A DNA stretch of 64,000 nt from Rhodopseudomonas pentothenatexigens. Its GTDB lineage: Bacteria; Pseudomonadota; Alphaproteobacteria; Rhizobiales; Xanthobacteraceae. Location of the stretch: assembly GCF_900218015.1 (NCBI RefSeq), contig NZ_UFQQ01000001.1, forward strand, positions 1 to 64,000. The letters run 5' to 3'. Numbering within the stretch: the first letter of the stretch is position 1; every line of letters begins with the position of its first letter. Both the position numbers and the translations under genes were made by a program. A model generated the notes under the pieces. It made no database searches and was not told where the DNA came from. It saw only the letters and a program-made list of their open reading frames with translations. Shown here in pieces: positions 43,673 through 55,719 of this stretch.

Positions 43673-45775
43673 ATGATCCAGGCTATCGTATTCCTGCCGC
43701 TGGTCGGCGCGCTGATCGCCGCCGTCATTGCGCTGGTGGGCGCCCATGCCCGCAACCCGAGCGGCGATACCGTCGAGCATCACGACGATCACGGCCACGG
43801 GCACGACGCCCATGGCCACGCTGCGCACGGCCACGACGCCCACGCGCATGCGGCGCACGGTCATGACGACCACGCTCACGACGACCATGCCCACGGCCCG
43901 GTCGAGCCGGCCGCGGCCGGCTCGCGGCTCGCCGAGATCGTCACCACGACGCTGCTGCTGATCTCCTGCGCGCTGTCTTGGGTGACGCTGGTCGACGTCG
44001 GTTTCATGCACCACGACTCCCGTGTGGCGCTGTTGCCGTGGATCAATTCCGGCGAGCTGCAGGTCGCCTGGGCGCTGCGGGTCGACACCCTGACGGCGGT
44101 GATGCTGGTGGTGGTGACGACGGTGTCGTCGCTGGTCCATCTGTATTCGATCGGCTACATGCACGAGGATCCGCACCGGCCGCGGTTCTTCGGCTACCTG
44201 TCGCTGTTCACCTTCGCGATGCTGATGCTGGTGACCGCCGACAATCTGCTGCAGCTGTTCTTCGGCTGGGAAGGCGTCGGCCTCGCCAGCTATCTGCTGA
44301 TCGGGTTCTGGTACCAGAAGCCGTCCGCCAACGCCGCCGCCATCAAGGCCTTCGTGGTCAACCGCGTCGGCGACTTCGGGTTCCTGCTCGGCATCTTCGC
44401 GGTGTTCGTGCTGGTCGGTTCGACCGACTTCGACACCATCTTCGCCGCCGCCCCGGACCTGACCGGCAAGACCATCAACTTCTTCGGCTGGAACGCCGAC
44501 GCGCTGACGCTGGCCTGCCTGCTGCTGTTCATGGGCGCGATGGGCAAGTCGGCGCAGTTCCTGCTGCACACCTGGCTGCCGGACGCGATGGAAGGCCCGA
44601 CCCCGGTGTCGGCGCTGATCCACGCCGCCACCATGGTCACCGCCGGCGTGTTCATGGTGGCGCGGATGTCGCCGCTGTTCGAGCTCGCCCCGGATGCCCA
44701 GGCCGTGGTGATGTTCTTCGGCGCCACCACCGCGTTCTTCGCGGCGACGATCGGCCTCGTTCAGAACGACATCAAGCGGATCGTGGCGTATTCGACCTGC
44801 TCGCAGCTCGGCTACATGTTCGTGGCGATGGGGGCGGGTGCGTATTCGGTGGGCATGTTCCACCTGTTCACTCACGCCTTCTTCAAGGCGCTGCTGTTCC
44901 TGGGCGCCGGCTCGGTGATCCACGCGATGCACCACGAGCAGGACATCCGCAACATGGGTGGCCTGAAGGACCGCATCCCGTTCACCTACGCGGTGATGCT
45001 GATCGGCACCCTGGCGCTGACCGGCTTCCCGCTGACCGCCGGCTACTTCTCCAAGGACGCGATCATCGAGGCGGCGTTCGTCTCGAAGAACCCGCTGGCG
45101 TTCTACGGCTTCGTGATGACCGTGGTGGCGGCGCTGCTGACCTCGTTCTACTCCTGGCGCCTGGTGTTCAAGACCTTCCACGGCCAGCCGCACGATCGCA
45201 AGCACTACGAGGCGGCGCACGAGAGCCCGCTGGTGATGACGATCCCGCTGTTCGTGCTGGCGTTCGGTGCGCTGGCGGCCGGCTACCCGTTCAAGGAGCT
45301 GTTCGCCGGGCACGGAGTCGAGGAGTTCTTCCGCTCGTCGCTGAAGATGCACCCGCACATCATCGAAGAGATGCACCACATCCCGGCGTGGATCGCGCTG
45401 CTCCCGACGGTGATGATGGTGGTCGGCTTCCTGGTGTCTTGGTTCTTCTACATCCGGCGCCCGGATATCCCGGTGGAGCTCGCCAGCCAGCATCGGCTGC
45501 TCTACAACTTCCTGCTCAACAAGTGGTACTTCGACGAGCTGTACGAGGTGATCTTCGTGCGTCCGGCGAAGTGGATCGGCCGGCAGCTCTGGAAGAAGGG
45601 CGACGGCATGCTGATCGACGGTCTCGGCCCCGACGGCATCTCGGCCCGGGTGCTCGACGTCACCCGCGGCGTGGTGCGGATGCAGACCGGCTATCTCTAT
45701 CACTACGCGTTTGCGATACTGATCGGCGTGGCCGGTCTGATCACCTGGTTCATACTCGGCTTGGGGGGCCGGTAA
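43673..45775 (+). CDS. nuoL: NADH-quinone oxidoreductase subunit L, with histidine-rich loop
   Basis: Antiporter-like ND5 subunit, 700 residues, pumping protons at the distal end of complex I. Core motifs are intact: [52 protein letters not shown] and [20 protein letters not shown]. Unusual is an insert between the first and second helices (residues 36-74) with 17 His in 39 residues, in the degenerate pattern H-x-H-D/A-A/D (for example [20 protein letters not shown]). The insert should face the periplasm or cytoplasm next to helix 1. The stop is immediately followed by the nuoM start. Confidence 0.97.
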
Positions 45776-52531: not shown

Positions 52532-52936
52532 ATGATAATTCATCAGCCCACCCCCTTGATCACGCTGCTTCGCGCTTTCGGGCCGGCGATGCTGGTCGGC
52601 GTTGTGGTGCTGGTGCAGGTGCTGGCGCCGATCGGGGTGGTTCGCTTCATGGCCGGCGCGATCGCCGATCCGGTCGGCGCGGCGCCGCATTGCGCGGCGT
52701 TGGCACAGCCGGGGCAGGCTTCGGATACCGCCCCGACCGGCCATAATGTCGGCTGCTGCGTGATCTGTTCGCTCGGGCTCGGTAGCGCGCCGGCGCTTCC
52801 GCCGCAGGACGTCGTCGCGGCGCGGTTTGCCCAGGCGGTGATCTGGCACCTTGTGGGTGCAGCGGCCGTCGACGCCGGGCAGTTCGTTCATGCTCAGGCA
52901 CGGGCGCCACCTGCATTGGCTGCGGCCTTTGCCTGA
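52532..52936 (+). CDS. DUF2946-like membrane protein with Cys/His cluster
   Basis: A 134-residue protein with one clear helix (about 17-40, AMLVGVVVLVQVLAPIGVVRF), then PHCAALAQ and GHNVGCCVICSLG, giving Cys54, Cys75, Cys76 and Cys79 with His53 and His71, and an ARAPP tail. The pattern is like DUF2946 proteins, often found next to copper genes. Metal binding is plausible but not proven. The start lacks a strong ribosome site. It is the first gene of the copper cassette, 121 bases before the PCuAC gene. Confidence 0.7.
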   Translation: MIIHQPTPLITLLRAFGPAMLVGVVVLVQVLAPIGVVRFMAGAIADPVGAAPHCAALAQPGQASDTAPTGHNVGCCVICSLGLGSAPALPPQDVVAARFAQAVIWHLVGAAAVDAGQFVHAQARAPPALAAAFA

Positions 52937-53057
52937 TCGCGGCATCCGCCGCTCTCTTCCTTGCGACCCTCGCTCGACGGCGCGTCGCCCTGCATCCGGG
53001 GAACGCGGCTGCCGGAGCGTTCGTTCTCCACTCCTCAACCGACAGAAAGACCCACCC

Positions 53058-53597
53058 ATGAACAAGCTCATCCGCAGCGTCGCGTCGATCGCCGTCGCCA
53101 CCTTGCTGTCCACCGCCGCGGTCCAGGCCGCCGAGGTCAAGGCCGGCGATCTGGTGATCAGCCAGTCCTGGAGCCGCGCCACCCCGGGCGGCGCCAAGGT
53201 CGCCGGCGGCTTCCTGACGATTCAGAACAAGGGCAGCAGCGTCGATCGCCTGGTGTCCGGCACCGCCGACATCGCCGGCAAGGTCGAGATCCACGAGATG
53301 TCGATGGACAACGGCGTGATGAAGATGCGCCCGCTCGACAAGGGGCTGGCGATCGAGCCCGGCAAGACCGTGACGCTGATGCCGGGCAGCTACCACATCA
53401 TGCTGATGGACCTGAAGGGCCCGCTGAAGCAGGGCGACAAGGTGCCGGTGACGCTGCAGTTCGAAAAGGCCGGCAAGGTCCAGGTGACGCTCGACGTCGA
53501 AGGCGTCGGCGCCAAGGCGCCCGGCGACACCGGCGGCAGCATGATGAAGATGGATCACGGCACCATGGACCACAGCGGCCACGGGATGAAGAAGTGA
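53058..53597 (+). CDS. Periplasmic copper chaperone PCu(A)C
   Basis: A 179-residue exported protein that carries Cu(I) to cytochrome oxidase assembly. Signal peptide residues 1-25 (MNKLIRSVASIAVATLLSTAAVQAA). The Cu(I) site HxnMxnHxM is visible as His79, Met90, His113 and Met115 (VEIHEMSMDNGVMKM ... GSYHIMLMDL). The C-terminal tail MMKMDHGTMDHSGHGMKK is Met/His-rich and should bind more copper. Its stop overlaps the start of the YcnI gene. Confidence 0.93.
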   Translation: MNKLIRSVASIAVATLLSTAAVQAAEVKAGDLVISQSWSRATPGGAKVAGGFLTIQNKGSSVDRLVSGTADIAGKVEIHEMSMDNGVMKMRPLDKGLAIEPGKTVTLMPGSYHIMLMDLKGPLKQGDKVPVTLQFEKAGKVQVTLDVEGVGAKAPGDTGGSMMKMDHGTMDHSGHGMKK

Positions 53598-54124
53598 TGC
53601 GATCCCGATCCGTATCGGCAGCGGCGGCCCTCGTGGCCGCCGCTCTGGGCGCCGGTCCAGCGCTGGCCCATGTCACGCTGCAGCCGAACAAGGCTGTGGC
53701 CGGCAATTACTTCCAGGCGGCGCTCAGCGTGCCGCACGGCTGCGACGGCAGCGCAACGCTCGCGGTGCGGGTCAAAATTCCGGACGGCGTGCTGTCGGTG
53801 AAGCCGCAGATGAAGCCGGGCTGGTCGGTCGAGATCAAGACCCGCAAGATCGCGGGCGAACAGCCGAAGCTGCACGGCAAGACCATCACCGAAACCGTCG
53901 ACGAAGTAACCTGGCGCGGCGGCCCGCTCCCGGATAATCTCTACGATACCTTCGGCCTGGTGATGAAACTGCCAGACGCTGCCGGCAAGACGCTGTACTT
54001 CCCGGTGGTGCAGGAATGCGAGAAGGGCGTTTCGCGCTGGATCGAGATCCCGGCCGCTGGGCAGAAGGCGGACGCCCTGCACGAGCCGGCCCCGGCGCTG
54101 CGGCTCGAGCCGAAGGTGCCGTGA
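53597..54124 (+). CDS. ycnI: YcnI-family (DUF1775) copper-binding protein
   Basis: A 175-residue exported protein. The signal peptide ends ...PALA, so the mature N-terminus is His25 (HVTLQPNKA), which together with Trp106 (DEVTWRGG) can form the mono-His copper brace described for YcnI. Fold is DUF1775. Cellular location periplasmic here. It overlaps PCuAC upstream and the CopCD gene downstream, all three translationally coupled, arguing for joint work in copper uptake. Confidence 0.9.
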   Translation: MRSRSVSAAAALVAAALGAGPALAHVTLQPNKAVAGNYFQAALSVPHGCDGSATLAVRVKIPDGVLSVKPQMKPGWSVEIKTRKIAGEQPKLHGKTITETVDEVTWRGGPLPDNLYDTFGLVMKLPDAAGKTLYFPVVQECEKGVSRWIEIPAAGQKADALHEPAPALRLEPKVP

Positions 54125-55719
54125 CGGCGGCTCGCCGACAGACGCGCAGCCGCGGGCGTTGGCTGGCCTGGATCACGGTGATCGCCGTGATGCTGTGGCC
54201 GGCGCTCGCGGCCGCGCATGCCAGCCTGGTCTCCAGCGATCCCGCGGCAGATTCGGTGCTGGCGACGGCGCCGCATAGCTTCACGCTGACCTTCAACGAA
54301 CCGGTGACCGCGCTGCGGCTGCAACTGATCGATCCGCGCGGCCGGAGCCATCCGGTCAGCGCGATCGACCAGGACGGCGCGACGCTGCGCTTCAAGCCGC
54401 CGGCGCCGCTGGGTGAGGGCGCACACCTGCTGAGCTGGCGGGTGTCGTCCGCTGACGGCCATCCGATCGGCGGAGCGCTGACGTTCTGGATCGGCACGCC
54501 CGGCCAAAGGCTGCCGGCCATCGAGGTGCCCGACGATCCGATGCGTCGCACCGCGATCTGGCTGACTAGGATTGCGTTCGAGCTGACGCTGCTGATGGCG
54601 GTCGGCGGCGCGGCATTTCTCGGCTGGGTCGCCGCAGCCCCGTCGCGCGGTGCACGGGCCGGCTGCGCCGCCGTCGCGCTGCTTGGTCTCGCTGCGCTCA
54701 CTCTCTCGGTCGGCCTGCAGGGGCTGGACGTGCTCGACCTGCCGCTTTCCCGGATCGGCGAGGCTGCGGTATGGCGGGCCGGCGGGTCCGGCTCGTTCGG
54801 CGACGCCGCGGCGCTGTCCGGCATCGCATTGATGGTGGCGCTGCTGTCGCTGCGCTGGCGCGGCTGGAATGCGCGGCTGCTGTCGCTCGGCGCGGTGGCT
54901 GGACTGGGGACGGCGTTCGCGGTCAGCGGCCATGCCGCCACGGCCGAACCGCGCGCGCTCGCATCCGCCGCGGTGTGGGTGCATGGCGTCAGCCTCGCGC
55001 TGTGGATCGGCGCGCTGCTGCCGCTCGCGATCGCGATCGGCAAGCGCGACACGGCGCCGGCGACGCTGCGGCGGTTCTCGCGCACGATCCCGCTGGCGAT
55101 CGTGGCGCTGCTGGTCAGCGGCGTGGCACTGGCCGCGATCGAACTCGGAACGGTCGATGCGCTGTGGCAGAGCGATTACGGCCGGGTGCTGCTCGGCAAG
55201 CTGGCGCTGGTGCTCGGACTGCTCGGCCTGGCGCTGTGGAACCGGGTCCGGTTGACGCCGCGTCTGATGGCGGGCGACGCGGCCGCGGTGCGGACGATGC
55301 GGGCCAGCATCTTCGCCGAGCTGATGCTGGTGATCGCGATTCTCGGCGTGGTCGGTCTGTGGCGGTTCACGCCGCCGCCGCGCAGCGGCGCCGCCGTGGC
55401 CGCGGACGTCGTGCACCTCCATGGCGAGCGGGCGATGGCCACGGTCACGCTGACGCCGGCCCGTGCCGGTCCGGTGCAGATCGAGGTGCTGCTGCAGACC
55501 GCCGACGAGGCGCCGCTCGCCGCCCAGGCGGTCACGGTGACGCTCGCCAATCCCGACGCTGGCATCGAGCCGCTCAGCGCCGCAGCGCAAAGGACGGCGG
55601 AGGGGCCGTGGCGGACGCGCCTGACCGCCCCGGTGCCCGGGCGGTGGACGCTGACGCTGGGGGTGCTGATCTCGGACTTCGAGAAGGTGAACCTCGAAGC
55701 CCCGATCGTGATTCGATAG
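54121..55719 (+). CDS. CopC-CopD fusion copper import protein (YcnJ-like)
   Basis: About 532 residues from a GTG overlapping the ycnI stop. After a signal peptide, the mature N-terminus His33 begins a CopC domain (HASLVSSDPAADSV; SADGHPIGG with Asp112 and His114 as copper ligands), followed by a CopD domain with about eight transmembrane helices (about 145-430) and a C-terminal extracytoplasmic part with beta-strand character. CopCD fusions import copper into or across the inner membrane. The four-gene cassette has no cytosolic metallothionein or P-type ATPase nearby. Confidence 0.9.
   Translation: MTAARRQTRSRGRWLAWITVIAVMLWPALAAAHASLVSSDPAADSVLATAPHSFTLTFNEPVTALRLQLIDPRGRSHPVSAIDQDGATLRFKPPAPLGEGAHLLSWRVSSADGHPIGGALTFWIGTPGQRLPAIEVPDDPMRRTAIWLTRIAFELTLLMAVGGAAFLGWVAAAPSRGARAGCAAVALLGLAALTLSVGLQGLDVLDLPLSRIGEAAVWRAGGSGSFGDAAALSGIALMVALLSLRWRGWNARLLSLGAVAGLGTAFAVSGHAATAEPRALASAAVWVHGVSLALWIGALLPLAIAIGKRDTAPATLRRFSRTIPLAIVALLVSGVALAAIELGTVDALWQSDYGRVLLGKLALVLGLLGLALWNRVRLTPRLMAGDAAAVRTMRASIFAELMLVIAILGVVGLWRFTPPPRSGAAVAADVVHLHGERAMATVTLTPARAGPVQIEVLLQTADEAPLAAQAVTVTLANPDAGIEPLSAAAQRTAEGPWRTRLTAPVPGRWTLTLGVLISDFEKVNLEAPIVIR

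Follow-up and report, generated by a model that had tools for sequence, protein, structure and literature searches.

The nuoL locus and its product

The histidine-rich tract described here lies within nuoL, in a window (the whole stretch of DNA that was analysed) of 64 kb. With nuoJ and nuoK upstream and nuoM and nuoN downstream, the gene occupies its usual place in the nuo operon, and the features that concern us are as follows.

43673 to 45775, plus strand: nuoL, encoding NADH-quinone oxidoreductase subunit L, 700 residues (NCBIfam, Pfam, and structural matches)
43676 to 43753, plus strand: transmembrane helix 1 (TM1), residues 2-27 (AlphaFold, pLDDT 96 in the first ten-residue block and 91 in the second)
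43754 to 43921, plus strand: long TM1-TM2 loop, residues 28-83, replacing the canonical 6-residue loop (295 distinct NuoL cores; pLDDT)
43778 to 43894, plus strand: histidine-rich tract, residues 36-74, of degenerate HxHDA-type units (translation, repeat structure)
43922 to 44005, plus strand: transmembrane helix 2 (TM2), residues 84-111 (AlphaFold model)
45179 to 45229, plus strand: TM13-TM14 loop, residues 503-519, its 17 residues being short here and the loop being an alternative insert site elsewhere

The protein matched NF005141 (E 2.6e-270, 898.7 bits against a cut-off of 556) and TIGR01974 (854 against 407.5), and the Pfam families found in it were PF00361, PF00662, and PF06455. Here, Pfam returned proton antiporter/NADH5 families only, with no CDF/ZnT or ZIP domain in the protein. 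Moreover, the L/ND5 chains of complex I were the top Foldseek matches to the AlphaFold model (TM-score 0.80; pTM of the model 0.83), in whose helices we counted 16 transmembrane segments, TM7 and TM12 being broken, as well as a lateral helix. The nearest named relative found, from Rhodopseudomonas palustris 2.1.18, is 91% identical. The genome analysed here holds a second NuoL-like protein (L117), with two related antiporter-like proteins adjoining.

A histidine-rich tract between TM1 and TM2

Codons 36-74 correspond exactly to bases 43778-43894, and translation gives 17 histidines among these 39 residues, the same count as in the first-pass annotation. The modelled limits of helices 1 and 2 place the tract between them, again as had been claimed, and the matching DNA repeats that were mentioned take the form of a degenerate tandem repeat, with a 15-bp unit in seven copies and a 30-bp unit in three. 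The binomial chance of such a histidine density is 7.9e-15 when the rate is taken from the rest of the protein, uncorrected for some 660 windows, and the runner-up 39-residue stretch in the 64 kb, among other stop-to-stop frames of at least 100 codons on both strands, has 9 histidines. Along with the 17 histidines, the loop (residues 28-83) contains 9 Asp and 2 Glu, and it is devoid of Lys, Arg, Cys, and Met. With pLDDT values below 50 for residues 29-76 in the AlphaFold model, the tract is predicted to be disordered.

Occurrence of the insert

For comparison, NuoL sequences were taken from 80 named contigs and from searches of the genus (16 genomes), family (149 genomes, 142 with a match), order (150 genomes, 140 with a match), and class (240 genomes, 196 with a match). 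Only part of all the matches was read, and the sample is non-random, with some of the NuoL regions picked for an unusual match or frame and some further loci being the best matches to a query made from the tract. Among 295 rows with distinct cores, the length of the TM1-TM2 loop is bimodal, being exactly 6 residues in 135 and more than 20 in 160, and the 6-residue form is mostly of the RxIGxR or RxIGxK type.

That NuoL of model organisms lacks the tract, another claim of the first-pass annotation, agrees with the solved chains as far as these could be seen. In Paracoccus, chain residue 22 aligns to NuoL residue 81, and in two plant Nad5 chains residue 24 aligns to residue 83, which leaves no insert in either case. 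For E. coli, whose match starts with chain residue 63 at NuoL residue 119, and Thermus, where it starts with 63 at 131, these offsets alone leave no room for such a tract.

Within the genus, the insert is present in all 15 genomes read, with lengths of 56-83 residues and 9-20 histidines; for one further member (G013), no close full-length NuoL match was found. In its own family, 97 of the 139 genomes read have the insert and 42 do not, which divides the genera into 27 with and 17 without, one genus code being on both sides. The odd copy is L242, a second and canonical NuoL in a genome (G142) of an otherwise insert-bearing genus. In the tree it falls with a different family, the genome is listed at 6% contamination, and L242 is probably a contaminant. 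In the rest of the order, the insert was seen in 11 of 45 families (86 genomes read). Outside the order but within the class, one match among those listed started before residue 5 (G353), and the NuoL in question has a 55-residue histidine-rich insert similar in make-up to the others, while its core clusters with that of a canonical family mate (G476; support 89).

Two loops of intermediate length (L345 and L346, 15 and 11 residues) were scored as canonical. Some lineages have loops poor in histidine, such as those of genus code g3 (4-8 histidines in 59-61 residues, 7 genomes read) and that of L030 (3 histidines), so whatever function the tract has is not a strict one. In L445 (G385, family f135), the TM1-TM2 region has an insert that is not histidine-rich (3 histidines counted in the region). 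As for the flanks, many carriers keep the motifs GAxxRxPxG before and AxGSR after the loop, and a TM1 end of the form IAGxI(A/S/T)L is common to many insert forms. The junction differs in family f23, with LFG before and YDGPx and then WP after.

A second site and the side of the membrane

A wider search of the phylum with an N-terminal piece gave a match in 56 of 299 genomes, and one NuoL among these (G198) had its histidine-rich stretch elsewhere in the protein, which led us to the TM13-TM14 loop. Histidine-rich inserts at this second site occur in lineages with a canonical TM1-TM2 loop, including Microvirga, Rhodoblastus, Chelatococcus, several genera of family f42, and families f94, f56, f119, f71, and f197 (rows L423-L441, L039, L051, L070, and others). 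Both sites are used within family f42, the TM1-TM2 tract being found in g114 and the TM13-TM14 tract in g336, g337, g88, and g128.

Among 315 aligned NuoL sequences, at least 7 histidines were counted in the TM1-TM2 segment of 139 rows, in the TM13-TM14 segment of 33, and in the TM14-TM15 segment of 2, while no row reached that number in any of the remaining 12 segments between helices. These segment counts come from the alignment, 20 rows without a parsed end of the TM13-TM14 loop being short by eye, and many of the 33 rows have short 18-residue loops with 6-7 histidines, as in the Xanthobacter-Ancylobacter group. The two TM14-TM15 expansions (L065 and L336; 7-8 histidines) are rare ones on the periplasmic side by helix parity, and L065 additionally has a TM1-TM2 insert with only about 4 histidines. 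When a tract was defined as more than 30 residues with at least 3 histidines for TM1-TM2 and as at least 30 residues with at least 6 histidines for TM13-TM14, none of the 315 rows had both, 153 had the first only, 14 the second only, and 148 neither. The apparent exclusion has a Fisher p of 9.8e-5, a value that ignores relatedness, and the independent pairs that differ are too few to bear it out.

Both loops, by helix parity and a published fusion topology, probably lie on the cytoplasmic, proton-uptake side. In that study (PMC11496545), a GFP fusion to Thermus Nqo12 cut after residue 515 lies on the N-side, and one to Nqo13 lies on the P-side. As the cut Nqo12 has 15 helices and Nqo13 has 14, both proteins would start on the P-side, with the TM1-TM2 and TM13-TM14 loops in the cytoplasm. 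With sides assigned in this way, there are 0.093 Lys and Arg per residue in the N-side loops versus 0.046 in the P-side loops.

Origin of the insert

On a FastTree tree of the NuoL core without the loop (295 rows), the insert trait requires at least 16 changes, and a 70-row IQ-TREE tree likewise gives 16, of which 4 are forced by well-supported branches alone; both trees come from one hydrophobic gene and have many weak inner branches. A tree count of 18 changes had taken L341 and L342 as insert-bearing, though both are canonical by eye. Placing the 36 insert carriers of the 70-row tree in a single clade costs 511 log-likelihood units and is rejected (AU p 9.3e-5), and with it one insertion followed by simple descent. 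For the family taken alone, the rejection of a single origin is weak (p 0.0235). Moreover, the canonical lineages nested among carriers have a standard RxIGxR-type loop, an observation that favours independent insertions, or recombinational spread of the 5' end of nuoL, over simple loss. A genome-wide mutational bias toward histidine-rich loops is disfavoured, since the NuoL-like paralogue lacks a tract in 15 genomes of the genus.

Apparent selection on the histidines

The first-pass annotation took high variability of the loop among close relatives, if joined to a deletion without effect, as a sign against a function. Loop length is indeed very variable, as seen from the range within the genus, yet the histidines are conserved. 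In 53 independent within-genus pairs, aligned by nucleotide matches only (so that histidine was not favoured) and with 12 codons trimmed from each end, the central tract retained 896 of 1017 histidines (0.881) versus 488 of 649 aspartates (0.752), a residue with equal codon degeneracy. The bootstrap difference between the two is 0.129 (0.084-0.179), and the same pairs retained 320 of 434 glycines and 388 of 561 alanines. Six neutral simulations, which used core synonymous distances, no indels, an assumed GC of 0.65, and a kappa of 3, kept 0.61-0.65 of the histidines and 0.53-0.61 of the aspartates. Thus, Asp too is retained above the neutral level, though less than His. With histidine retention exceeding both that of aspartate and that of the simulations, the variable length does not mean drift, and the histidines of the tract look to be kept by natural selection. 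The few histidines of genus code g3 run counter to this.

For the same 53 pairs, pN/pS is 0.276 in the loop versus 0.139 in the core and pS is 0.455 versus 0.279, the codon alignment of the repeats being uncertain. In the 166 loops longer than 30 residues, the histidine fraction has a median of 0.217 and a minimum of 0.062, against a neutral equilibrium of 0.029. It is composition, rather than sequence, that is conserved. The spacing is also distinctive, as in 52 genus representatives HxH is 1.69 times and HxxH 1.85 times as frequent as in shuffles, and HH 0.41 times. Here, the x in HxH is mostly Gly or Ala, and the xx in HxxH is most often Asp-Asp. Duplication of the repeats can alternatively give rise to such regular spacing.

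A putative metal-binding segment

Many alphaproteobacteria have a floppy, histidine-rich segment in NuoL, probably on the cytoplasmic face, and the apparent selection on its histidines suggests a real job, which may be metal binding or proton gathering. Of the roles offered in the first-pass annotation, metal binding and proton buffering are the two that fit best, and copper is not favoured. Our leading reading, which we hold tentatively and at somewhat less than a balance of probability, is that the tract is a putative binder or guard for divalent metals of the Zn/Ni/Co class near the proton-entry face of NuoL. In such a mechanism, a disordered tether rich in His and Asp would extend from the cytoplasmic face, its histidines under selection, and would bind Zn-, Ni-, or Co-class ions through HxH and HDDH clusters. 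It would thereby buffer metal locally or act as a guard, with ions either kept off the cytoplasmic proton entry or handed on. Zn2+ inhibits complex I; NuoL is not known to have a metal-transport site.

The selection on histidine, the HxH and HDDH spacing, the scarcity of Cys and Met, and the predicted disorder favour ions of this class, and so does the likeness to tracts of metal proteins in the same genome. After a pattern search of that genome, at least 16 histidines per 39 residues were found in 4 of 13 places read, and three of the four are metal proteins: the C-terminal tail of UreE, adjoining UreF (L387, G000:C25:79600-82000), a loop of a NicO-type nickel transporter (L380, G000:C51:19600-21700), and a stretch of a CobW-type GTPase (L384, G000:C51:33400-35300). 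The fourth is a His/Arg frame of 119 codons with 22 histidines in 39 residues (L382:814-1170, minus strand, G000:C54), which has no Pfam match and may not be a gene.

Copper, as either ligand or genomic neighbour, finds no such support. Across the 166 loops longer than 30 residues there are 6 Cys and 55 Met, and between nuo and the copper cassette 8 kb downstream, to which the tract had been linked, lie birA, RNase J, and a glyoxalase-like gene. With Cys and Met scarce and the cassette in another gene group, a copper store was rejected as first choice. The cassette itself (52532-55719) is of the copper type, with DUF1775, CopC-CopD, and a weak DUF2946 match below the cut-off. We further compared gene content in 140 genomes, of which the NuoL N-terminus was read in 91 and 49 were called canonical from the match start. 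A link to nickel hydrogenase was not seen there, hypB being present in 12 of 39 carriers versus 27 of 101 genomes without the insert. Commoner in carriers is ureG (35 of 39 versus 56 of 101; Fisher 1.2e-4), though this may reflect kinship, with only 3 well-supported independent pairs to go by.

Alternative readings

Metal buffering by itself leaves the choice of NuoL as carrier unaccounted for. That the tracts are confined to the presumed uptake face, in either of two loops, hints at a part in the pump's own action, be it shielding the proton entry from metal ions or gathering protons. A proton-collecting antenna is a close rival, if in our estimate a somewhat unlikely one. Here, groups with a pKa near the cytoplasmic pH would gather or buffer protons at the entry face of NuoL, for which residues 28-83 offer 17 His and 11 Asp/Glu. 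According to one proposed mechanism (PMC10212512), cytosolic protons enter via NuoL and NuoM and exit through NuoL only, and a protonatable QcrB loop in a mycobacterial supercomplex has been put forward as a proton-collecting antenna (PMC11189923). With both tract sites likely on the uptake face, an antenna would explain the choice of NuoL and the sufficiency of either loop. It has no need, however, of HxH or HxxH spacing or of a depletion of HH, it would allow interchange of Asp and His, whereas His is the better kept, and 148 of the 315 rows do without either tract.

That the tract is a tolerated low-complexity spacer, a repeat-prone insertion into a permissive surface loop and merely harmless, we consider improbable. 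The ready shifts in length among close relatives, the tandem repeats in the DNA, the predicted disorder, and the histidine-poor versions all fit such a spacer. Nonetheless, the neutral reading is disfavoured by a histidine fraction that, even at its lowest, lies above the neutral equilibrium, by a pN/pS well below 1 and a histidine retention above that simulated, by the recurrence of histidine-rich expansion in two loops and hardly in other segments, and by a second NuoL-like protein that lacks a tract in 15 genomes of the genus. Least probable of all in our view is a docking or assembly tether that binds another protein, possibly via a shared metal, in complex I assembly or supercomplexes, as small-ion binding fits better with the conservation of composition rather than sequence, even if disordered, position-interchangeable tracts on one face and the flank motifs kept in many carriers would suit a flexible tether.

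Returning to the divalent-metal reading together with its proton-gathering rival, a broader proposal would be that a repeatedly gained, position-interchangeable cytoplasmic His/Asp tract on NuoL makes proton uptake by alphaproteobacterial complex I responsive to free divalent metal or to the pH of the cytoplasm. This we regard as possible, if on the doubtful side. Were it true, the tract would amount to a supplementary regulatory element of the distal pump, one that model complex I is not known to have. Few enzymes have been studied as closely as complex I, and if the tract does bind metal or protons where NuoL takes up protons, it would provide a natural, removable handle on where and how protons enter the distal pump, as well as a tie between respiratory proton pumping and the homeostasis of metals. 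With relatives that carry the tract in TM1-TM2, in TM13-TM14, or in neither, the question is directly testable.

Comparison with known systems

Both the protein and the idea of a histidine-rich loop are already known, and, provisionally, the tract in NuoL is new. Neither a histidine-rich NuoL tract nor its two alternative sites were found in the open literature searched, with subscription papers mostly falling outside it. The tracts of UreE, the NicO-type transporter, and the CobW-type GTPase are similar to that of NuoL in density and in their His/Asp/Gly make-up. By eye, these have many HH runs, whereas HxH and HDDH spacing dominates in the NuoL tracts.

Among transporters, the tract can be likened to the flexible, histidine-rich cytosolic inter-helix loop of ZnT/CDF proteins, as in human ZnT7. 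There, the His-loop is reported to be flexible and to bind Zn, and its deletion left the fold within the membrane largely unchanged (PMC10409766). NuoL likewise has a flexible inter-helix loop with clustered histidines (pLDDT <50; 17 His in 39), but it is a proton pump and, unlike ZnT7, not a CDF or ZIP protein by Pfam. A likeness by description rather than by sequence exists to the QcrB loop of mycobacterial III2IV2, which presents protonatable groups on the uptake side (PMC11189923), where the NuoL loop probably lies as well, although QcrB is a different protein. Lastly, family, fold, and genomic setting are shared with the NuoL/ND5 subunits of Paracoccus denitrificans (8qby_L), E. coli, and Thermus (Nqo12). 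In contrast to the canonical TM1-TM2 loop of 6 residues with 0-1 histidines, the NuoL described here has, by the same measure, 65 residues with 18.
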